This document shows positions 27,366 through 41,399 of a DNA stretch of 43,521 nt, piece by piece. The position numbers and the translations under genes are program-made. The first letter of the stretch is position 1, and the number at the start of each line of letters is the position of its first letter. The notes beneath the pieces are model-generated. The model ran no database searches, was not told where the DNA came from, and was given only the letters and a program-made list of their open reading frames with translations. Source of the DNA: a virus; IMG/VR virus record IMGVR_UViG_3300022698_000101, positions 1-43,521 of that record; one strand, given 5' to 3'.

Positions 27366-29645
27366 TTAGATATTAAGCATAGCTTCCAGCTCTAGAACCC
27401 GTCGTTCTTGATCCTGGGCTACTTTAATTAAAAACGGTATAAAACGATCATAATAAATGCCTTTAAGTTTACCGTTATCTTGAAATGTAAGATCCGGGTT
27501 AACCTCAAATAGTTCTTCTGCAATCATTCCAAAATCGTTAAAACTTAAATCGTTTTTTGGATTAAAAGATACAGGATTAACATCAAATATCCAGTCAATA
27601 TTTTCAATGGGTTTGATATTAGTTTTAACTTCCCGTGTAGATGAATCATATCCCATTAGGCCTGAGGAATCAACATAAACAGCTTTACCAGCGCTAGTAC
27701 TGGTATTATATATAGACACGGCTCTAAAGTATGTGACTTGATTGAAGTCCGCTGTTTCTGCATAAACTCGTACTATATCCCAATCAAGTGTACTACTGCC
27801 TATATATAAGTTGTATGTAGTAGTTGACTTAGGGCGAATATACATGATACTTGAGTTATAATATAAATTTGCATCTTGAGCATCTCCAAAATATATTGCT
27901 TCATTGGACCCTATATACATACTGCCTATTTCTTTTGAAGTGCTACCAATATTAGAGTTTGACGTAGGTAGTAAGTTGCCAAGCTCATCAATTTCCCACC
28001 TTGTTGTCGGGAGTGCGCCTGTTCGGAGATAAATTGACCCAGATGCGTTATTAGCATCGATATAAACGCCTCCTGCACCTGTGCTTTGTATCAGAAAAAC
28101 GTCTTCAGTTCCATTATATCCTATTTGCGCATCTTGAGAAGCTCCAAAATAGTGAAAACCGTTATCGGCTTGATAGATATGTTCAATTTCTTCTGATGTA
28201 GAACCAATATCGTACGTAGCTGCTGAACTGGGCACAAGATCACCAGTAGAATTAATATTCCAACGTTCTGTTGCATCAGTATAGAACTTAATTTCAGTAA
28301 CTGCGTTTATATAGATATCGGCCCAGGAATTCGCATTGGTTCCGATCTTACAATTTCCAGTTCCATCAACGCTCGGAATAATTTCAAAATCAGCACCGTC
28401 CCAATATACAGTTACATCTTGAGCATCTCCAAAATAATGAGCAGAATCATCACCTTGGTAAATATCTTTAATTCTTAATGCAGTAGTGCCTATATCATAA
28501 GAATCAGCAGTTAGCGGAGTAAAATGACCAGAAGCATCTATTGCCCAGTGATCAGTTCCGTCTGTATGGAAATATAGCGGCTCAGCTCCTGTAGTTCCCA
28601 GTTTAAATATTCCAGCTGCTGCATATTGTATAAAAGCATCTTGACTATCGCCAAAATAAACGTAGGCATCGTCTTCAATATAAATATTCTTTACCGGAAC
28701 ACTTGACATGCCTATATTTTGTCCGCCAAGCATAGGCCCAACATTCCCGCTTACTATTGTCCAATCGGTTTCAGCATGATAGTATCTAAGCTCAGCAAAT
28801 GCACCATTTGAGATATCAACAGATGCTTGTCCGAAAATTGTAGCGGCATCTAATGTATCGATAGTTAAGTCGTAAGCCGACCCATTAAACATTGAGATAA
28901 TAAAACCATCCATCGCTGCTGACATAGCTGGAAGAGAAAATGTCTTATCGACAGCAGTTCCAGAACCCAGCACAAGTAGCTTTCCGCGGTCTGTTGCTAG
29001 TACCTCGTAATCGTCTGTTTTTTCATCTACACTTAAAATTTCGCCGGCCACTCGGTGCCAGTTTGTTATATCTTCACTGGGGGTATTCGCAAGATTTGGA
29101 CTAGTTCTGCTAAAGTAAAAAGCTCCAAGATACTCAACAAAATCGCCTATTGCGTAGGAGACATTAGCGTTGTATATTTGGACAAAAGCAATTTCTTCCC
29201 AAGATGACGTTTCAACGGCTGGGTTTTTATTGAGATTGCTTGCTACGATTGATCGATAAATCGCTAAATTGTATTTAACAATATCTCCAATACCGTAGGT
29301 GGTAGCATTATCCCAAGCTTCAAGACCGGCACCTCCGCCGCTGCTACTTGAAGCAGCTACTTCTACAGGGTCGAACATCTGGACTTGAACACCAGGGTTG
29401 CCTTCATCTAGCGGATCATACGTGTATGAAACAACACGATAACTACCGGTCCCAAATACGCTGGGGCATCTACCTTCGGCGTCAAGCTGCAGGGGGTTTT
29501 CATTAGGAACAGCCAGAGCTGAATCTGAGTAAGTATTCTTAAGAGTGTTATTAGAACCTGACTCTAAGAATTTAAGCCATCCTAACGCTAATGGATCACC
29601 GGCTCCGTCTAAAAATTGTGCGAAAGCTTCAATTACTCTACCCAT
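27366..29645 (-). CDS. Tail fibre with C-terminal S74 intramolecular chaperone (fibre B)
   Basis: A 759-residue adhesin. The N-terminal virion-attachment part (1-95, MGRVIEAFAQFLDGAGDPLA) is shared with the fibre encoded next to it. Two short aromatic carbohydrate-binding-like segments follow (WDNATTYGIGDIVKYN and YNANVSYAIGDFVEY). The shaft has at least four repeats of a unit containing YFGDxQDA. The end is a peptidase S74 chaperone (666-759): YDSSTREVKTNIKPI with the Ser669/Lys674 dyad and the FGMIAEELFEVNPDL motif. The chaperone helps trimerisation and cleaves itself off. The start overlaps the stop of fibre A (TAATG). Confidence 0.85.
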   Translation of the reverse strand: MGRVIEAFAQFLDGAGDPLALGWLKFLESGSNNTLKNTYSDSALAVPNENPLQLDAEGRCPSVFGTGSYRVVSYTYDPLDEGNPGVQVQMFDPVEVAASSSSGGGAGLEAWDNATTYGIGDIVKYNLAIYRSIVASNLNKNPAVETSSWEEIAFVQIYNANVSYAIGDFVEYLGAFYFSRTSPNLANTPSEDITNWHRVAGEILSVDEKTDDYEVLATDRGKLLVLGSGTAVDKTFSLPAMSAAMDGFIISMFNGSAYDLTIDTLDAATIFGQASVDISNGAFAELRYYHAETDWTIVSGNVGPMLGGQNIGMSSVPVKNIYIEDDAYVYFGDSQDAFIQYAAAGIFKLGTTGAEPLYFHTDGTDHWAIDASGHFTPLTADSYDIGTTALRIKDIYQGDDSAHYFGDAQDVTVYWDGADFEIIPSVDGTGNCKIGTNANSWADIYINAVTEIKFYTDATERWNINSTGDLVPSSAATYDIGSTSEEIEHIYQADNGFHYFGASQDAQIGYNGTEDVFLIQSTGAGGVYIDANNASGSIYLRTGALPTTRWEIDELGNLLPTSNSNIGSTSKEIGSMYIGSNEAIYFGDAQDANLYYNSSIMYIRPKSTTTYNLYIGSSTLDWDIVRVYAETADFNQVTYFRAVSIYNTSTSAGKAVYVDSSGLMGYDSSTREVKTNIKPIENIDWIFDVNPVSFNPKNDLSFNDFGMIAEELFEVNPDLTFQDNGKLKGIYYDRFIPFLIKVAQDQERRVLELEAMLNI

Positions 29646-32437
29646 TATGCAGCCTCCAATGTGGCTATACGTTTATTTAGGTTGTGAATTTCTTGTAGCA
29701 TCAAGCCCACGAGGTTTCTGTGCTTAACTGCTGCCGGAGTTTTAGCCCCAGTTTTAGGATCAATATCATAATCAACTAACTCAGGATTCACTAATTCAAC
29801 TTCTTCAGCTATTAGACCAAATTCTTTTTCGCCGGGTACAGCTCCATGAACTTTATCGGGATCATATTCATATTCTTGAGGCGTAAGATCATAAATCCAG
29901 CTAAGGTCTGCATCTTTTAACTTTTTGAAGTTGTTTTTATTTTCTTTGGTGGATGATAAGTACCCTAATCGGCCAGAGCTATTTACGTAACAATCTCTGC
30001 CAGTTAACGATGCCGAATAGATATTGGGACAAGTGAAAGTAGCAGATGGCAAATATATATTTCCAGTACCGTCTATTTGAAATCTAATTGTGCCACCCGT
30101 ATAGATATACATCGTAGAGTCGCTATTTATATAGACGTGATCCCAGTTCATAGCAGTACGGCCTATCTTTAGTATTCCGGTATCATCTGTAGTAGGCTCG
30201 ATGCGTAATTCTGTAGTTGAATTATCCCAACCTATAATACCATCATTTGATGCACCCAAACGGATATACCCATCATCAGCTACATATATATCTTCACAGT
30301 AAAGACTACCTACTGGGTAAGAAGCACTACCTATATCAAGGGCACCAGCTAATGGAAACAAGTCCCCACCGACATCGATTAACCATTGAGTAGTTGAATC
30401 TGTTACTAGACCTAATTGACCAGTACTTCCATACACGCCAATTAGCAGATGCTGTCCCGTATCAGCAGGTATATGTTTAATATAGGTCGATCCAGAATGA
30501 TTATACATCTCCAATTGTTGATCAGCGCCTGCAAAAATTGCACCACTATTATTCATGTAAAGATTTGTTACGCCACTAGTAGCATTCCCAATATCAGGGC
30601 TAAGTGTAGATGTTTGTGGAATCAAATCCCCTGTTGTACTTTTTATATACCATGCGTTATCAGAATCATCAGAGGCTGTAGCAACTCTAAGTACTATGCT
30701 ATTAGCATCTGGCGTATCTTGAGTACCTATATTTTGAGATGGTCCTATTTGTATATAGTTACCAGTAGAACATCTAACTTGCAAAACCGTACCTGCTGCA
30801 TCATAAATAGCACCGTTAGGCCCTACATAAAAATATTCTCCATTATCCATAAATATAGAGCCAGTTTCATAAGTAGCCGAGCCTATATCTCTAGCTCCGC
30901 CTATAGGTAAAAAATCTCCACTTGTGTCTATTTCCCATTGGCTAACTGCATAAGGGGCAAAAACAATAGAATCACCGCTAACAGCTGGCGTAGATAAAAT
31001 GACTTGATTTAACGCATGGATTGTTACGTTTGACGAACCCGATACAATATAACTATCTTGACTATCGCTTAAATAGATATATGAAGCATCGCCCAGGTAT
31101 ATATTCGCAAAATCTGCAGTATCACTACCTAAGTCGTAAGTCGCAGCTGCTGCTGGGAGTATATCGCCAGTTACAGTTAGCGGCATGAATATTGAAACTG
31201 CAGTAGCATAAGCATGAATAATATCTACGCCACCCGCAATAAGATTTACTTCATCTGCATCAGGCCTACCTACACCCGTGTTAATATCATCTACAAAGGT
31301 AAACGTAGGAACAATAGAGCTACCTGCCTGAGAATATATTGCACCTCCTAAAGTTGTATTACTATAGAGGTAGTTGGCGTTCATTATCCAAGCAAGAACA
31401 CCAGCCATAGCAAAGTCAACTCTACCTGCACTAGGGCTATAAAAGCCTGTCTGATCATCAAATTGAATTGTAGGAGAAGCTGCATCATCGTCGGATGGGA
31501 GTATTAATTTACCGCCAGTATCTAAATTAACATCTCCGTAAAAATACGCATCTTGACTTTGATCTAATAAAAAACCCAACGTAGGTCCTGCACCAGTATA
31601 TATTTCAAAATCACCAGTTGCATGCTGGACTTGAATTTTAATGTCGCCTGTTGTAGTCTTAATATAGAAGTCGGTACCGTCATGAACTATATGAGCGTCT
31701 TGCCCATCCCCGAAATAATGATAACTATTATCACCCTGATAAAAATTGCCTATCTCATTCCCTACTGCGCCTAAATTATATCCAGCTATGTTAGGCTGGA
31801 GAGTTGTGCCTGATTCACTCCAGTTAAGAAAGATAGTACCATTTCCCACAGGTGTCCACCATGTGGGAGAAGTAAGTGGAGTATTGCCCACATTAGAATC
31901 AGCCAGAGAAAAATACAAACCATTGCCAGAAATAACCACATCATTAAGCGCGTATGTGACGTTGACATTCCAATACCTCAAAAAATCGATTTTTTCCCAT
32001 TTATCGAGATTAGTATCTGGAGCGTTACCCAAATTGCTGTTTATTAACGACCGATAATAAAAGCCGTTATGTGTAGCAATATCGAGTATTGAATATTCTG
32101 TGGTAGCTTCCCACGTTTCAAAATTTGTACCGGAACCTGTGGATGAGTTTTCAGCGTTTACTGGATCAAACTGTGCGACCTGAACGCCGGGCAGGTGCAG
32201 TACTGGGTCATCTTTATATAGGACAACTCTATATTGCCCTGTCCCAAACGCATCTGGGCAGCGTCCTTCGGCGTCAAGTTGAAGGGGATTAGAATTAGGT
32301 ATTGAAAGTTCCTCATCAGCGTAGGTATTTTTATCCGTATTATTAGTATTTGAATACAGAAAATGCAGCCACCCATCGGCAAGCGGATTACCTTCCCCGT
32401 CAAAAAATTGTGTGAACGCGGCAATAACTCTGGACAT
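29645..32437 (-). CDS. Tail fibre with C-terminal S74 intramolecular chaperone (fibre A)
   Basis: A 930-residue paralogue of fibre B. It has the same N-terminal attachment part (MSRVIAAFTQFFDGEGNPLA; LQLDAEGRCPDAFGTGQYRV), similar aromatic segments (YWNVNVTYALNDVV), and a longer shaft with at least five of the same repeats (for example HYFGDGQDAHI, IYLSDSQDSYI). The C-terminal S74 domain (827-930) carries Ser829/Lys834 in LSSTKENKNNF and FGLIAEEVELVNPEL. Both N-termini probably bind the same tail site. The gene starts 9 bases after the ADP-ribosyltransferase-like gene and has GGAG near its ATG. Confidence 0.85.
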   Translation of the reverse strand: MSRVIAAFTQFFDGEGNPLADGWLHFLYSNTNNTDKNTYADEELSIPNSNPLQLDAEGRCPDAFGTGQYRVVLYKDDPVLHLPGVQVAQFDPVNAENSSTGSGTNFETWEATTEYSILDIATHNGFYYRSLINSNLGNAPDTNLDKWEKIDFLRYWNVNVTYALNDVVISGNGLYFSLADSNVGNTPLTSPTWWTPVGNGTIFLNWSESGTTLQPNIAGYNLGAVGNEIGNFYQGDNSYHYFGDGQDAHIVHDGTDFYIKTTTGDIKIQVQHATGDFEIYTGAGPTLGFLLDQSQDAYFYGDVNLDTGGKLILPSDDDAASPTIQFDDQTGFYSPSAGRVDFAMAGVLAWIMNANYLYSNTTLGGAIYSQAGSSIVPTFTFVDDINTGVGRPDADEVNLIAGGVDIIHAYATAVSIFMPLTVTGDILPAAAATYDLGSDTADFANIYLGDASYIYLSDSQDSYIVSGSSNVTIHALNQVILSTPAVSGDSIVFAPYAVSQWEIDTSGDFLPIGGARDIGSATYETGSIFMDNGEYFYVGPNGAIYDAAGTVLQVRCSTGNYIQIGPSQNIGTQDTPDANSIVLRVATASDDSDNAWYIKSTTGDLIPQTSTLSPDIGNATSGVTNLYMNNSGAIFAGADQQLEMYNHSGSTYIKHIPADTGQHLLIGVYGSTGQLGLVTDSTTQWLIDVGGDLFPLAGALDIGSASYPVGSLYCEDIYVADDGYIRLGASNDGIIGWDNSTTELRIEPTTDDTGILKIGRTAMNWDHVYINSDSTMYIYTGGTIRFQIDGTGNIYLPSATFTCPNIYSASLTGRDCYVNSSGRLGYLSSTKENKNNFKKLKDADLSWIYDLTPQEYEYDPDKVHGAVPGEKEFGLIAEEVELVNPELVDYDIDPKTGAKTPAAVKHRNLVGLMLQEIHNLNKRIATLEAA

Positions 32438-32446
32438 AGCTTTCTC

Positions 32447-33952
32447 CTATTGTACTTGCTTTACTTCCTCAATTGTCATATCCTTACCTGCAAACGTCAC
32501 ATAATTATATTTCTTTGACGGCTTGCCGCCAGCAGTAAGAGTTCCGACTGGGTAGCGTATACCATCAATTCCTGCCCGCTTCAGGAATTTTGAGGCTCCT
32601 TTATCGGAGCCAAATACACGTGATAGTTCTTTATAAAGTCTCTGCCCCTCGTGAGCAGTATTAGGTTTATTCAAGGCATGTTGGACGTCACCAGATAATT
32701 GATCCCACATCCCTTCTTTATTAATTTGAACACGTATTTTTGCACGTTCTTTATGACCAGCCGGTTTATGCCAATCCATATAATTATATTCAGACGGATC
32801 TTTGCCTTTATGCAACGTAACCTTATACAAGTACCCAGGATGCATTTCAGCGGTAAGTTTGCCGCCTTCAAATAGTTCATCTATATCGGGATAACCCGTA
32901 AGAAACGGGGGTATCTCTGAATCGGGGTTAGCCATCAGTTTATCCCCTAAATCTCGGATAACACTAGAAACGTACATTTCTATATTACGCCTAACGTCCC
33001 ATCCCTCCTCATCAAACCCATCGGCTAATTCCTGATGCCAGTCATCAAATGCGTCTTCAGGGTCCATAGCCATAATATCTTCTTGGAATGCTGTATACCC
33101 GTTATTCAAGTCATCGATAGTAGGATTAGCGGGGTCCCGTAAATAGTCTTCTCTGTAATGTGGGATTTTATCCCAGAACGGGTGGTCTGGATCGGACCAC
33201 GCTTCAGCCGCCGCGTCAGATAAGCGTCTTTGTATGAATTCAGGATCATTTGTTGCTTGTCGCATGAATTCATCTCTAGCTTCACGCTCAATATGCACGT
33301 CCAAATCGTCATAATTAATTGCTTTCCCATTATTCCGTATAATAGGTTCTGATCTCATTTTAGCATAACTGACAGCGACGCCGGGTTGCTCTGATGTATA
33401 CAAACCCCAGCCAAATGCCTGAACACCCTCGCCTGAACCTATATGTTTGGTGGAAAGCCCTACTTCTGGGTCAATTTTATGAGGTGATCCGTGGTGAACT
33501 TCAATGTAACCTTCGTCACCAAGTTTCTTTAGAACTTTCTGATATTGACGTGATATGGGCGGAACTACTTTACCCACGATACCCATTTCTAAAGCTGCAA
33601 GAGGTAAAGAATGAACGACGGCACCTACATCTGGAGACCCTGTCTTTTCTGCCCAGTAATCACCGGCGGTAGTGAGGGCCTGCTCAGCTTTTGTCATAAC
33701 TGGCTCCACCAATTCACCCATATTCTGCATATATTGTTTACCATGTTCTGTCTTTGGCGTATAGGTTAAAGTTTCTTGGACACCCTGTACTGCTTGGCCT
33801 GCCTCTTCAAGGCTTTTACCCTGAGCTAACGCTCCTAAACCCGCAAAACCCGACAGCGGTTCAGCCACTGCTCCGGAAGCCATTGATAATCCGACCTCAC
33901 CGAGGCCGCCTATAATCTTAAATCTGCTAGTATTCTTGGGTACTGTTGGCAT
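32447..33952 (-). CDS. Predicted ejected protein with ADP-ribosyltransferase-like domain
   Basis: A 501-residue protein. The N-terminal 130 residues are glycine/alanine-rich and resemble ejection-protein leaders (MASGAVAEPLSGFAGLGALA). From residue 148 a domain begins with GYIEVHHGSPHKID (His153/154), then STKHIGSGEGVQAFGWGLYT (168-187) and VSYAK. It ends with FLKRAGIDGIRYPVG and KKYNYVTFAGKDMTI. This pattern matches the ADP-ribosyltransferase domain of phage and conjugative polyvalent proteins (ART-PolyVal type). Position after the gp7/gp20/gp16-like genes suggests it enters the cell with the DNA, like T4 Alt. It overlaps the preceding gene by 26 bases. Confidence 0.7.
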   Translation of the reverse strand: MPTVPKNTSRFKIIGGLGEVGLSMASGAVAEPLSGFAGLGALAQGKSLEEAGQAVQGVQETLTYTPKTEHGKQYMQNMGELVEPVMTKAEQALTTAGDYWAEKTGSPDVGAVVHSLPLAALEMGIVGKVVPPISRQYQKVLKKLGDEGYIEVHHGSPHKIDPEVGLSTKHIGSGEGVQAFGWGLYTSEQPGVAVSYAKMRSEPIIRNNGKAINYDDLDVHIEREARDEFMRQATNDPEFIQRRLSDAAAEAWSDPDHPFWDKIPHYREDYLRDPANPTIDDLNNGYTAFQEDIMAMDPEDAFDDWHQELADGFDEEGWDVRRNIEMYVSSVIRDLGDKLMANPDSEIPPFLTGYPDIDELFEGGKLTAEMHPGYLYKVTLHKGKDPSEYNYMDWHKPAGHKERAKIRVQINKEGMWDQLSGDVQHALNKPNTAHEGQRLYKELSRVFGSDKGASKFLKRAGIDGIRYPVGTLTAGGKPSKKYNYVTFAGKDMTIEEVKQVQ

Positions 33953-35423
33953 TTTGCTCCACTTGTGATACTTGGTAACCTAACAATCGGGCTGATGCCC
34001 AAGTAGGATCAATTGGAATACCTTGTTTCTTCCACTTATTGAGAATAATTGCCAGACGTGATTTAAATCGCGGCATGCTATACACGGCCAGGACGGAGCC
34101 AGCTGCAAGGCCAAGATCGCCGCCCAGTAGAGCGCCGGCACCGAGTTTACTCATTGTGCCAAGACCGCCAATTCCTAATTTGTCTAGCCGATTGACTGCT
34201 GGCATGATAGCTTCTTCCAATGCTAATAAATCGGAGTCAGCTGCGTTAAGCTTCTTTAACTCAGGCATAAAATCGTTTAGTTTATCCCTGGCGGCCCTTG
34301 CAAGTGCCATTTTACGCCTGACTTTTGGCTTGGAATACTGGGTTTTACCATATAAAGAGCGTAACTCATCGTACACCTCTAATTTGTAGTCTTGAAGATC
34401 ACGAGCATTTAACTCTTTTCTACCAATTTGCTTATTTGCTTTGATAACTGCCTGACGCGCTTTGAGAACTGCCTTTTGAGCAGCTTTAGGATCATCTGTA
34501 TTTTTACGAGCAATATCATAAATAATTGAACCATACTCACGGAATAAGGCGTTTACTGGAACAGCTTGTCCTGTCGTAACCGACCTGTCCAGCGCATCAG
34601 AAATCGCTGCATTCAAGAGATCTATATTTGTGCGAAGCTTCTCTAAACCTTTTTGAGTTGGCATGATCGCATTATCTAGAGCAGTATCGTTCAATTTATT
34701 AAGCTGCTCAGGAGAAAGTTTTCCTGCAAAGCGGACTGCCTCTTGATACATCCCCCGTGCTTTGTGCTTGGGAATCATCCGTCTACCGGTCGCTGTAATT
34801 CCTTTAGATGCTAAAGCTATAGGGTCTGCCAACGAGGCAGCTTTTACCGCCTTATCTGCTAACTGGGATAGTTTCTGGAGCTTAGCAGCCTTGCTTAAAC
34901 CCTTTACTGCCATACCTCCGGGGATAAATACAGTAGCTCCATCCATCATAACGCCTACAGGGTCTTTAGCCAACGCCTTTTTAAACCCTTCTATGGTACC
35001 GTATCTATCCTTATAAAAATCCCACATCATCTGGGCGTTGCCTTCAAATTGTGTGCCTAAAAGCCCAGTGGGATCTAAAGCCTGACCAACCCCAGCGGCA
35101 AGGGCGAGAACACCTTTGATAGTTTGACCCGGATGGGCAACTGCTTCCCCAATATCCTTTACAGCTTGAAACGCACTGGACGGAATATTATTTACTGCTT
35201 CACCAAATACGGTTTTCCAATCAGTGTCTGCAGTTATTTCCTGTTCTACTTTACCAAACCGTGAGGGCTCCGCTGCTTGAGCGGGCTGCGGTGTAGCAAA
35301 TCCCATACCTGCAGCAGAAGCCGCAGGAAGCTCCGGCAGGGGCTGCTGTTGAGGAGCTGGCTGTGCAACAGGCTCCATCAGTTCTCCCGGTTGTGCAGGC
35401 TGTACCAAATTAAATCGTGACAT
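33927..35423 (-). CDS. Predicted ejection (internal virion) protein III, P22 gp16 position
   Basis: A 498-residue protein. The N-terminus is proline/glutamine/alanine-rich (QPAPQQQPLPELPAAS). The middle is helical with repeated basic stretches (KGLSKAAKLQKLSQLADKAV; RKMALARAARDKLNDFM), and a hydrophobic glycine-rich segment lies near the C-terminus (GALLGGDLGLAAGSVLAVY, about 430-448). Such membrane-active helical proteins follow gp7 and gp20 in P22-like phages and build the channel for DNA entry. Naming is from gene order and composition. Confidence 0.65.
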   Translation of the reverse strand: MSRFNLVQPAQPGELMEPVAQPAPQQQPLPELPAASAAGMGFATPQPAQAAEPSRFGKVEQEITADTDWKTVFGEAVNNIPSSAFQAVKDIGEAVAHPGQTIKGVLALAAGVGQALDPTGLLGTQFEGNAQMMWDFYKDRYGTIEGFKKALAKDPVGVMMDGATVFIPGGMAVKGLSKAAKLQKLSQLADKAVKAASLADPIALASKGITATGRRMIPKHKARGMYQEAVRFAGKLSPEQLNKLNDTALDNAIMPTQKGLEKLRTNIDLLNAAISDALDRSVTTGQAVPVNALFREYGSIIYDIARKNTDDPKAAQKAVLKARQAVIKANKQIGRKELNARDLQDYKLEVYDELRSLYGKTQYSKPKVRRKMALARAARDKLNDFMPELKKLNAADSDLLALEEAIMPAVNRLDKLGIGGLGTMSKLGAGALLGGDLGLAAGSVLAVYSMPRFKSRLAIILNKWKKQGIPIDPTWASARLLGYQVSQVEQNANSTQEY

Positions 35424-35432
35424 AGTTACTCC

Positions 35433-36848
35433 TTATTGAGCAGGGGGTGCAGCATATACCCATCCGCTGGGTGTGCGTTTGTAATATACGCCGGGATTTT
35501 CCTGATCATCAATTGTAACACCCACAGGATATTGATCTATAGGCAAGGAGCTTAACTCCTGTAGGAGTTCCGGCGAAGCATCCATATCTATAGGCTGGCC
35601 AACTTTTGGATCGGCAGGAGGTTCAGTGGCTGTCTCCTGGACAGCGTTTGGGTCGGCTGCCGTAGGCTGCGGTACAGCACCCGTACCTGCAGGACTTTGA
35701 CGCATACCCGCACGTTCCAAATACTCTTGATACGGCTGCTCGCCAATGACGTGATAAAAAGGAATTCGATCAATTTCACTCATTGCCTTGATACCGCCAA
35801 GTTCCTCGTCGTACGAGGTAGTAGCGGCAATATGCATTTTATCAGATACGTTTTTCATATCTGCACGTTGTTGGTCAGTTAAACGGCCACCAGTTTCCCA
35901 CTTTTCCATCATTACGTCAAGTTTAGACGGTAAGCCGCCAAACTGTCCTCTGACCTTATCAAAAGTGGACTGCATCTGGCTTTTTGCCGCTTCCGGCTGA
36001 GCTGCCCACCACGCTCTGGCTTCCTCTGCCGTCTTAAACTCAGATTCACGTACGACAGACTCAGGATCCTGCATCTTCATAAAATTGAATACCAGAGCAA
36101 GGTCAGAAGCACCAGTCCCCATATCCCAAATACGATCAATTCTTTGCTTGGCATTATTGACGATGCGATATTCCTTTTGAGCAGGATTAAGGCGTTCACG
36201 TAATTTGTTGACCTGTTTACGCTGCCATTCTTCAAGGCCGCCTTGAAGGTTCTCTTGGCCTGGCTGCTCGGGATACGCCCCGTGGAACTTAGCAAAATTG
36301 TACATCTGAAGAAGCGCTTCTTCCCGGTCAGGACCCAGTGGCATTCCCTTGGTTTGCTCAATTTTCATACGCATAGGATTGCCCTCAGGTAATACTTCTG
36401 CAGCCTGCTGGAGTAATGTATTCTGCCCTTCAATATCATCAGGTTCAAGTGCCAGGGCGCCATGAATTTTAAAAGCTCCTTCCACGAAACTTGTGCGGTC
36501 AACGCCCTTAAAAACTGTATCAATTTCCTGTGCAGCCTTCGGGTGTACGAATGCTAACTGCTTCATCTTGTGGCGGTAAGCTTCCATATTACCTGAATCC
36601 CAAAGGTTCATAGCGTCTTTAGCCAAGTTGTCAGCACCAATATCCTTTGCTAACTGGCGTTCCTGTTCAGCTAGGAGGTTTTCCTGTTGACGTAAGGTGA
36701 CTTGACCCAAAGCGGAAGCACGCTCCTCTTGCTGTCGAGCAATACCTGCCTGTTGCCCCATGGATACGGCCTGAAGTCCAGCTAACGCTGCACGAGGGGT
36801 AGTATCTGGAGCGGGTACATGTGCAAAAGCTGTCGGGTTAATCGGCAT
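35433..36848 (-). CDS. Predicted ejection (internal virion) protein II, P22 gp20 position
   Basis: A 471-residue, mainly helical protein. The N-terminal ALAGLQAVSMGQQAGIARQQ plus glutamine/glutamate-rich helix continues into a large helical domain. The C-terminal part is proline-rich (TAADPNAVQETATEPPADP) and closes with a small domain TIDDQENPGVYYKRTPSGWV. Features fit the DNA-transfer proteins that leave the capsid ahead of the genome. It sits between gp7- and gp16-position genes with 9-10 base gaps. Confidence 0.65.
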   Translation of the reverse strand: MPINPTAFAHVPAPDTTPRAALAGLQAVSMGQQAGIARQQEERASALGQVTLRQQENLLAEQERQLAKDIGADNLAKDAMNLWDSGNMEAYRHKMKQLAFVHPKAAQEIDTVFKGVDRTSFVEGAFKIHGALALEPDDIEGQNTLLQQAAEVLPEGNPMRMKIEQTKGMPLGPDREEALLQMYNFAKFHGAYPEQPGQENLQGGLEEWQRKQVNKLRERLNPAQKEYRIVNNAKQRIDRIWDMGTGASDLALVFNFMKMQDPESVVRESEFKTAEEARAWWAAQPEAAKSQMQSTFDKVRGQFGGLPSKLDVMMEKWETGGRLTDQQRADMKNVSDKMHIAATTSYDEELGGIKAMSEIDRIPFYHVIGEQPYQEYLERAGMRQSPAGTGAVPQPTAADPNAVQETATEPPADPKVGQPIDMDASPELLQELSSLPIDQYPVGVTIDDQENPGVYYKRTPSGWVYAAPPAQ

Positions 36849-36858
36849 TGTGTTCTCC

Positions 36859-38469
36859 TTAGTATGTGGGTAAGTTTGCTAAACCCGGGTTCTGTTGTGT
36901 AAAATTTTGCGTTTGATATACGGGTAGACTGGAGGGCTGTGCCGCGGGTTGAACCGCTACGTTTCCTAAACCATACCCTAAAGCAGACGTAACTCCCTGT
37001 ACGCCTTGTGCCGCAGCTTGCCCGGCTGCCATAGTCCCAGCAGCTTGCGTAGCGCCGCCCTGAGTTTGAAGATTGGCAATTTGAGAGCCTGTCCCGGTTG
37101 CGAGATTAGCAAGGTAACTCGATAACGCGTTCTCAGCTTGTAATTCCGTACTGGCTTCACGTTCTGAAAGATTTGCAAGGTTTAATCCAGTTTGGCCGAC
37201 AACGTCTGCCATCTGACCGCCGGCCACTGAAGCTAAGCGGGCCTGAGCCTGTCCAATTTCGCTTTCAATTTGGGCTACATTCAAACCCGTTCTCTCAGCA
37301 AGGGCCCCTCGTTCAGATGCGTTCATTCTCAAGAGGTCTGCCTGTGTCATACCCAGCTGCTGCGCAAGTTGTGCCAGTTGAGTTCCTGCCCCAGTAATAA
37401 TTCCAGCTTCTGCTCCTGCAACCTGTTGACCGCGACTTGCAATGCTCCGGAGGTTTTCAAGGTGCTGTTGCTGTTGAGTAGAAGCAATACCCATCGCCTG
37501 TTCTTGGAGAGCAGTGCGAACGTTACCGCCGCCTAAACCCCCAATAGCAGCCGAGTTACGCAGTAGAGCTTTCTCCTGCCTCTCCCTGAGGTACTTCTGA
37601 CCTGGACTTTCAATATAGGCATCAATTGCGGCCTGCTGTGCTTCTGGACCCATAGCACCAGAGAGGGCTGCTTCCTTTTCCATAGCAGCTTTACCCGCTA
37701 TGGAATACGGAGAAAATCGTTCTAAGGCAGCATCCCTGGCAGTTGATACATCACCTCGGGCTGTCATAGTCCCTGCAGCCGCAGCTGCTAATCCCGATTG
37801 TAAACCTTCTTGCAACCGCGCGTCTGCTCCGCTAAATCCTATATCCGGGAGAGGTTCCTGCGGTTGGTCAAACATTTCAAACCGGTTACCTCCCATAGGA
37901 ACTTCCTCGGGTTCTGCAGGAATAAATCCTCCAGACATTTCCTCGGTAGTAAGTCCCATACCGGGGGTCATCATGGATTCCTCAGCACCTGCAACTCCGC
38001 CTATATCGAGAGAAGAACCTCCCGGTTCTCCTGCAGCAGGAGCCGGGCCGTTCGGAGTCGGTACCATTCCGGGAGCATCATACGCTCCAGATTCATACTG
38101 TTGCATAAACGTTTCCATGGGAATCCCTTGTGAACGGGCCTGCGATCCCAGGATGGCACGTTTTGAATCGGCTCCGGCATTATCCAAGATCTGTGCTGCC
38201 TGACCTGATGTATTTTCAAGAATATCCAGCACATCAGCTTCGCTATTAATGATGGCATCACGCGCATCGCTAATCCCAGCACGATAGTTTGCCATTGCTG
38301 GATCAAACCTATCTAGAATTTCCGCACGAGCGCCTGCTGCTGACATCCTTAAGGTCTTTTGTGCGTTTTTAATTGCGCTAGCCTGTTTACTCGCTGCAGA
38401 TTTTGCGGCGTTTGCGCTAATTGCGGCTCCCGCAACTGCCCCGACGGCTACGACTGCTGCTGCTGGCAT
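36859..38469 (-). CDS. Predicted ejection (internal virion) protein I, P22 gp7 position
   Basis: A 536-residue protein rich in alanine, glycine and glutamine. A hydrophobic N-terminus (VVAVGAVAGAAISANAAKSA) could insert in membranes. Helical stretches follow, with a central glycine/proline-rich linker (about 130-200) and a long helical C-terminal half (AIGGLGGGNVRTALQEQAMG, then AGTQLAQLAQQLGMTQADLL). A similar protein, P22 gp7, is the first ejection gene after gp14. Here it likewise follows the gp14-like gene by 9 bases. Confidence 0.7.
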   Translation of the reverse strand: MPAAAVVAVGAVAGAAISANAAKSAASKQASAIKNAQKTLRMSAAGARAEILDRFDPAMANYRAGISDARDAIINSEADVLDILENTSGQAAQILDNAGADSKRAILGSQARSQGIPMETFMQQYESGAYDAPGMVPTPNGPAPAAGEPGGSSLDIGGVAGAEESMMTPGMGLTTEEMSGGFIPAEPEEVPMGGNRFEMFDQPQEPLPDIGFSGADARLQEGLQSGLAAAAAGTMTARGDVSTARDAALERFSPYSIAGKAAMEKEAALSGAMGPEAQQAAIDAYIESPGQKYLRERQEKALLRNSAAIGGLGGGNVRTALQEQAMGIASTQQQQHLENLRSIASRGQQVAGAEAGIITGAGTQLAQLAQQLGMTQADLLRMNASERGALAERTGLNVAQIESEIGQAQARLASVAGGQMADVVGQTGLNLANLSEREASTELQAENALSSYLANLATGTGSQIANLQTQGGATQAAGTMAAGQAAAQGVQGVTSALGYGLGNVAVQPAAQPSSLPVYQTQNFTQQNPGLANLPTY

Positions 38470-39956: not shown

Positions 39957-41399
39957 TTATTTAATATCCGCTTCTAACTTGATTATGACGGGTTTTACTG
40001 CGTCTGACCATCTAAATCGCCAGATACAGAAACGCGGAATACGTCCGTTTTTACGCCAAATAACCCTTTGCCCATATTTACCTATTTTACCTATACGCCG
40101 TGAGCGTTCATAATCAAAAGTCTTTGCGTCTTCCGATATTGCTAACGATACAACTGGATCTTCAACTCCGTTACCGACGCCTGATTCGACAGTTAGTTCG
40201 ATCATAGGTATTCTAAGTGGTTTGCCCCCTTTAGCTATCGGCTGGGTTGTAAAGACACGTACAATATTATTGTCATATTCTTGATACTCAGCTTTATCAA
40301 GAATCCCAATTCTACCATCTTGAGAATCTCCCACAATATTGTACCCGTACGCATGAACTAAGGAATTCACTCGCCAGCGGACTTGGGTAGGATCACCGGT
40401 TACGGCATCATCAACCGAAGACTTCTGCTCATGCCACAGGTTTGTTGTCATATTAAACACAAATGTACGCTCAAGAAAACTAAAAGCAACAAAAAATTGT
40501 CCGTCAAAGCTCCACGTAATTGCGAATGTTACATTCAAAACTGCATCTGTAAATCCGCCAATTACGTTGTCAATGGCTATAGTAGAGATCTTTTGAAACT
40601 GACCGCGCACAAAAGCCCAAATACCTGGACTTTCATTCTTGCCTCCGCCAATCATGAAAAATTGCTGATTCGAAGAAACGAGAGAAAAAGGAGCATAGCA
40701 GCCTTTATCTAAGAAGATGTTGTTTCTTTGGAACGGAAATCCTGGGCCTCCGATGTTTTGGAATCCTTCAGTCGTTTCTGAGCCTGTAACGAAAAGCTGG
40801 TTGTTGTGCACCACCGGTGCAACAATAGGATCAGGATCAGCTTCAGCAGTTCCAAAATCCAGTGCGTCCCAAGTGGTACCGTCATTAAGAGCGGATATAA
40901 TCCATTTTTTAGAGTCAGTACTACAAGCGAAATACCCATCAATAAAGACAACGTACTGAGGATCGCCAGAAGCCCTAAAGTCTGCGTCAGTAATTTCAAC
41001 TAATCCTCCCGCAACTGAATAGATATACCCCTTACCACTGGGCACAAGAATCATTAGTTGCGTTCCGTTGTCAGCCATACTGACGCGGGTTGAGCCTTCA
41101 ATTGTGTCAATGGCAGTAAGAGTGAAAGTTTCTACGCCGGATATATACGATCTATCCAGTCGGTATAGCGTATCTCCTTGGACAAAATAAGGAATACCAG
41201 CTAAGTCCCAAGAACCGCGATTAACTTCATCAGTTGTTGCTCCTGCTGTAGCAATCTGACGTATCCCGGGGGTTCCGACAAGCTGGCGTTTGGAAAGGGT
41301 TGGCACTTCAGGAGTTACTGGAATCCAATTTGTACATTCCTGATGTGAAATAGGTAAGGATTTCGCTACATAAAATCCATTTGTCAGCGGTATTTCCAT
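39957..41399 (-). CDS. Tail hub / packaged-DNA stabilisation protein, P22 gp10-like
   Basis: A 480-residue beta-propeller-like protein with features of P22 gp10 (472 residues). The N-terminus is LTNGFYVAKSLPISHQECTN with NWIPV. The middle has GYFACSTDSKKWIISALNDG, and the C-terminal third has GRIGILDKAEYQEYDNNIVR, then RIPMIELTVESGVG and YGQRVIWRKNGRIPRF. That last stretch corresponds to the P22 gp10 VYDKRVLWKRVGRIRR region. gp10 binds gp4 under the portal and carries tailspikes. Its ATG overlaps the preceding gene's stop. Confidence 0.85.
   Translation of the reverse strand: MEIPLTNGFYVAKSLPISHQECTNWIPVTPEVPTLSKRQLVGTPGIRQIATAGATTDEVNRGSWDLAGIPYFVQGDTLYRLDRSYISGVETFTLTAIDTIEGSTRVSMADNGTQLMILVPSGKGYIYSVAGGLVEITDADFRASGDPQYVVFIDGYFACSTDSKKWIISALNDGTTWDALDFGTAEADPDPIVAPVVHNNQLFVTGSETTEGFQNIGGPGFPFQRNNIFLDKGCYAPFSLVSSNQQFFMIGGGKNESPGIWAFVRGQFQKISTIAIDNVIGGFTDAVLNVTFAITWSFDGQFFVAFSFLERTFVFNMTTNLWHEQKSSVDDAVTGDPTQVRWRVNSLVHAYGYNIVGDSQDGRIGILDKAEYQEYDNNIVRVFTTQPIAKGGKPLRIPMIELTVESGVGNGVEDPVVSLAISEDAKTFDYERSRRIGKIGKYGQRVIWRKNGRIPRFCIWRFRWSDAVKPVIIKLEADIK

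Follow-up and report, generated by a model that had tools for sequence, protein, structure and literature searches.

A predicted ADP-ribosyltransferase joined to an ejection-protein leader in the late ejection cassette of a P22-type phage

Closest described systems

Work on injected phage ADP-ribosyltransferases (ARTs) has mainly concerned T4-like phages. ARTs are the commonest protein-modifying domain in polyvalent proteins, for which packaging and injection are predicted; Alt is placed in the R-S-E clade and the polyvalent-protein ARTs in the H-Y clade (Iyer et al. 2017, PMC5512222). Head-packaged ARTs have been widely proposed, with a bias toward myoviruses, and in one survey just 3% of podoviruses had ARTs (PMC9503650). 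Mosaicism and domain swapping are established features of ejection proteins (PMC8954989), and the stretch from gene 16 to the tailspike in P22-type phages holds extra DNA, which amounts to 836 bp in phage L (PMC10883804).

The window analysed here is the whole stretch of an IMG/VR record of 43,521 bases, and the protein under study, P0001, is encoded in its ejection cassette. ART-PolyVal domains (PF18760; Tox-ART-HYD2-like, Iyer et al. 2017) have the motifs HG[ST]P, GTGEGxQxxGxGLY, GIxGIxY, and NYVxF in common with P0001, as well as the predicted fold and late or virion gene settings. Unlike the multi-domain giants, P0001 is a two-part protein of 501 aa with a large helical insert, and it has Ala after motif III where relatives mostly have Asp or Glu. 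Pseudoalteromonas phage vB_PspP-H6/1 (H6/1) gp19 and Vibrio phage 1.275.O NVP1275O_17 resemble P0001 in a leader of ~120 residues (33-41% identity) and in their place beside the tailspike, but their bodies are non-ART ejection-type regions. Standalone ARTs of ~400 aa from P22-like and other podoviruses (loci L030, L077, and L038; Sulfitobacter phage phiGT1 gp5) consist of a short N-terminal segment and an ART, and are found beside ejection genes or between portal and scaffold; these N-terminal segments are mostly unrelated to that of P0001, whose leader is detectable only in L038.

An ART-like fold is also present in packaged ejectosome proteins of short-tailed phages, namely the cyanophage A4 pre-ejectosome protein (PDB 9k3a chain B) and Pf-WMP3 ORF26. 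In A4, this region is the C-terminal part of a 1,717-aa protein, with ~15% identity in structural alignment to L044, a compact relative of P0001. The A4 structure is reportedly that of Hou et al. in PNAS, 2025; chain B is deposited as 'Tail protein'. PfWMP3_26 (Pf-WMP3 ORF26, L247:6215-10702) has its C-terminal region in common with the A4 protein and contains an HGT...Y-type motif pair.

The ART enzyme family is therefore already known in phages, and the new points are the clear two-part build of P0001 and a documented leader swap. We consider it probable that P0001 is a packaged and ejected accessory virion protein of a P22-type phage, whose ART modifies a host macromolecule in favour of the phage. 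The compact arrangement of one ejection leader and one enzyme makes this prediction simple to test.

The P0001 gene and its ejection cassette

The window contains a P22-type morphogenesis module, with coat, portal, TerL, gp4, gp10, gp14, and a gp7-like ejection protein. Genes are ordered gp4 ... gp10, gp14, gp7, gp20-like, gp16-like, P0001, and two fibres, of which the following are discussed:

39957..41399, minus strand: gp10 (Phage_stabilise), the anchor in the search for relatives
36859..38469, minus strand: gp7-like ejection protein, 536 aa (PHROG 'DNA ejection'; H6/1 gp17, 34%)
35433..36848, minus strand: gp20-like second ejection protein, 471 aa (by position; phrog_13634; homologues at the same position in relatives)
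33927..35423, minus strand: gp16-like third ejection protein, 498 aa; in locus L090 its body is joined to a P0001-type leader
32447..33952, minus strand: P0001, predicted leader-ART protein, 501 aa, 55.6 kDa; fourth gene in the ejection cassette
29645..32437, minus strand: tail fibre directly downstream of P0001, 930 aa, with an S74 chaperone C-terminus

The open reading frame at 32447-33952, first picked out from the sequence alone, is genuine, running on the minus strand from an ATG at 33952 to a stop at 32447. The ATG is preceded at 4 nt by a GGAG, the start falls 26 nt inside the end of the upstream gene, and 9 nt separate the P0001 stop codon from the fibre ATG. Scans for promoters and terminators gave signals at shuffle level. 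The gene lies within the late ejection cassette, between the gp14-like and fibre genes, as is typical of P22-type E-proteins. Its position after three P22-type ejection genes and before the fibres, as described in the earlier note, is firm with respect to gp7, and for the other two ejection genes it is supported by position and by homologues at the same positions in relatives. The two fibre genes (window 27366-32437) have related N-termini and both end in an S74 chaperone; both also contain a CBM_5_12 (chitin-binding type) segment, which is weak in the first fibre.

The C-terminal domain and its active site

P0001 had no useful match when searched directly against Pfam, NCBIfam, and PDB sequences, and no close relatives of P0001 or P0006 were found in IMG/VR. 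As P0001 alone did not reach any Pfam ART model, a leave-one-out profile became the key test. Against a profile of 54 relatives built without it, P0001 scored 150.5 bits (E 1e-45), compared with a best score of 6.5 bits for 200 shuffles. PF18760 (ART-PolyVal) was matched by 47 of the 55 aligned sequences and the PARP catalytic domain by one, so that P0001 is placed by sequence homology with ART-PolyVal (Tox-ART-HYD2-like). When residues 147-501 were used in tblastn searches, relatives were seen in phages whose hosts include Rhodobacteraceae, methanogens, and Sulfitobacter; a scan of IMG/VR returned at least 509 relatives, of which 80 were kept, and 74 further loci from many phyla came from scanning bacterial genomes. 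When profiles were searched against the PDB, all matches were of the gp41/coiled-coil kind, lay around the linker, and were judged to be chance. The leave-one-out profile, the PF18760 matches of relatives, and the predicted fold all agree with the ART domain that the earlier note had proposed and, on sequence and modelled structure, residues ~147-501 are an ART domain of the phage polyvalent-protein type. The parts of the protein are as follows:

33545..33919, minus strand: residues ~12-136, predicted helical leader, homologous to the leader of related phages' last ejection protein
32450..33514, minus strand: residues 147-501, predicted ART-PolyVal-type domain with a mostly helical insert of ~160 residues (~205-365)
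33482..33496, minus strand: motif I, HHGSP (153-157); H154 invariant in 55/55
33398..33433, minus strand: motif II, GEGVQAFGWGLY (174-185); Y185 invariant
33365..33367, minus strand: Y196, invariant, 11 residues after Y185
32492..32509, minus strand: motif III, YNYVTF (482-487); N483 invariant, aligning by motif with the catalytic Glu of PARPs; followed by A488

HHGSP, GEGVQAFGWGLY, and IDGIRYP (462-468) are all present, as first reported, and so is the conserved tyrosine, although this is Y185 and not residue 186. H154, Y185, Y196, Y376, and N483 do not vary in the 55-sequence alignment; for H154 and Y185 this is in part a product of the selection, since loci were picked by patterns around motifs I and II. 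Y196 and Y376 lie outside these patterns, and the pattern used to read N483 would equally have accepted D, S, or H. H154 and Y185 provide the strand-1 His and strand-2 Tyr of ART-PolyVal, and H154-Y185-Y196-N483 follow a PARP-like order. The spacing of Y185 and Y196 is that of Y896 and Y907 in PARP1, and YN-YVTF of P0001 was aligned with YNEYIVYD of PARP1, which puts N483 at the catalytic Glu place. Asn occupies this position in all 55 sequences. The next residue after motif III, position 488, is D or E in 45 of the 55 and Ala in P0001 only. The polyvalent-protein clade has been described as H-Y-D, the Asp being that of strand 5 (Iyer et al. 2017, PMC5512222); if this Asp is the residue after NYVxF, P0001 has Ala488 in its place, and it is N483 that is invariant in this strand.

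With Asn in place of the catalytic Glu, and with Ala488, catalysis by P0001 could be weak, altered, or lost, and the active site is the weakest part of the enzyme claim, leaving activity uncertain as judged from sequence. In PARPs, from which the comparison motifs were taken, loss of the Glu fits mono-ADP-ribosylation and also inactivity (PMC7955679). P0001 might then be packaged and ejected with its ART as a pseudoenzyme, carrying out no transfer but binding to NAD+, to nucleic acid, or to a host protein, as the Asn common to all 55 sequences, the unique Ala488, and inactive PARP-fold proteins such as PARP13 (PMC7955679) would allow. We consider this unlikely, as H154, Y185, Y196, and N483 do not vary even among highly divergent relatives, fitting a retained active site, and several active mono-ART PARPs are without Glu at that place (PMC7955679).

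The same residues bear on the comparison with T4 Alt suggested in the earlier note. Alt is of the R-S-E clade and P0001 has H154/Y185/Y196; the R-S-E active site of T4 Alt and VIP2 ARTs is not seen in P0001, its H-Y-Y-N motif pattern was the ground for excluding it from the Alt clade, and the two are not homologues at family level. The likeness lies in the proposed logic of a packaged ART injected with the DNA, and by this analogy it is plausible that P0001 works as Alt does, being packaged, injected, and host-modifying.

For fold comparison, an AF2 model of P0001 was used, in which the ART strands have pLDDT >90 and the first 27 residues and the linker are of low confidence; strands were seen at 150-156 and 184-187. 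Foldseek searches of viral models with the P0001 model gave 21 matches at E <= 0.001, several of them named ART-PolyVal, so the structural check suggested at the outset supports an ART fold by prediction. Searches of the PDB with the full-length model gave no match at E <= 0.001, probably because of the large helical insert; ARTs among the weak matches listed are MbcT, diphtheria toxin, and PARP-2. The compact relative L044 (192 aa, pLDDT 92) was therefore modelled in place of full-length P0001. The sole PDB match of this model at E <= 0.001 was 9k3a chain B of the cyanophage A4 pre-ejectosome (E 1.7e-5, prob 1.00), followed by RES toxins and tankyrase/PARP domains. The match to this solved structure gives independent support for ART folds in podovirus ejection complexes.

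MbcT and RES toxins degrade NAD, and weak fold matches to both would fit an ejected enzyme with a non-protein target, which could ADP-ribosylate DNA or RNA, or consume NAD+ or an NAD-derived signal, so as to guard the incoming genome or block NAD-based defence. The ART superfamily has DNA-, RNA-, and NAD-directed members (PMC9503650). This seems quite improbable for P0001, given that protein-modifying tankyrases/PARPs are the most numerous cellular fold matches and that nothing points specifically to nucleic acid. If P0001 is an active enzyme, as we favour, its product would most likely be single ADP-ribose units on a protein.

The N-terminal leader, relatives, and proposed role

Residues 4-135 of P0001 match NVP1275O_17 of Vibrio phage 1.275.O at 41% identity. 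A second match, at ~33%, joins residues 23-143 to H6/1 gp19, whose annotation is 'putative ejection protein'. P0001 scored 106 bits against a leader profile built without it, with shuffles reaching at most 9.6. The resemblance of the N-terminus to ejection-protein leaders, noticed before any search, is thus homology; it is confined to the leader, as the ART body is not homologous to ejection proteins. The leader helices are of low to moderate confidence in the P0001 model.

With the window copy taken once, the leader profile covers eleven proteins. Two are ART proteins (P0001 and that of L038), and the other nine are long and have no ART. Of the latter, six (H6/1 gp19, 1.275.O gp17, L097, L105, L171, and L090) occupy the place of the last ejection gene, with L089, L091, and L092 left out of this placement. 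All but L090 of the six adjoin a fibre or tailspike, and the L090 protein is preceded by one gene at the gp7 position and one at the gp20 position. In L090, a P0001-type leader is fused to a gp16-type body, which the window encodes in the adjacent gene. Its presence on a gp16-type body in one phage and on an ART in the other indicates that the leader was swapped between ejection protein and enzyme, which suggests a route by which short-tailed phages could add ejection cargo. Among other loci, leaders common to ART and non-ART proteins were limited to the L038-L105 pair and one short L050 match, so the swap cannot be taken as general; the leader was absent from the ART-bearing loci scanned in bacterial genomes.

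Searches with gp10 gave 80 relatives, 29 of which have the whole gp7-to-fibre interval. Exactly three ejection genes were present in 28 of the 29, the exception being L097 with an extra 304-aa ORF, and none of the 29 has an ART gene in this interval. L094 and L095 (gp10 67% and 63%), the two closest of the relatives whose interval is complete, have gp16 directly before the fibre. The P0001 gene, missing from this position in relatives, looks like added cargo, and its absence beside full three-gene ejection sets suggests, from gene content, that it is dispensable. That P0001 is instead a late protein of the producing cell, or an ejection-channel part with the ART fold as scaffold, is very unlikely: gene position cannot tell these options apart, and the ART fold of the solved A4 protein may be structural there, but a gene missing from relatives with the full ejection set is probably dispensable for ejection, and an ejection leader would serve no purpose if the protein never left the producing cell.

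From the domain, leader, and position we infer packaging, ejection, catalysis, and a benefit to the phage. For P0001 as an ejected accessory enzyme, the protein would be synthesized late alongside head and ejection proteins, would be brought into the head by its leader, and would leave via the portal with gp7, gp20, and gp16 as infection starts. In the cytoplasm, the C-terminal H-Y-type ART would then move ADP-ribose from NAD+ onto a host macromolecule, a modification that may favour the phage. The earlier note suggested RNA polymerase, ribosomes, or defence proteins as the target; the evidence favours none of these and speaks against none. The common leader could reflect membrane or ejectosome binding instead of packaging. 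More tentatively, it is possible that the leader is a portable packaging-and-ejection tag and that effector enzymes are put behind the N-terminus of the last ejection protein, yielding a fourth, cargo-type ejection protein; the leader alone would then direct a protein into the virion and on to the next host cell.

ART genes also occur elsewhere in such genomes. In L030 and L077, a gp20-type gene and one further gene are followed by an ART protein of ~400 aa, and an ART protein lies between portal and scaffold in phiGT1 (annotated) and in L038, L041, and L149 (by gene order). The L149 protein (L149:3706-6000, 764 aa) has two ARTs, the second of which passes the PF18760 (ART-PolyVal) threshold, and adjacent genes in L079 (8148-9563 and 9563-11458) both match the ART domain, perhaps through duplication. 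Two large ART-bearing phage proteins are annotated only as 'MutT/NUDIX hydrolase' (L007:583-5052, Tunturi_5) and 'methyltransferase' (L004, LS06-2018-MD07). In L118, L151, and L161, the gp7-like ejection protein is enlarged to ~1,000-1,400 aa, perhaps also by added domains.
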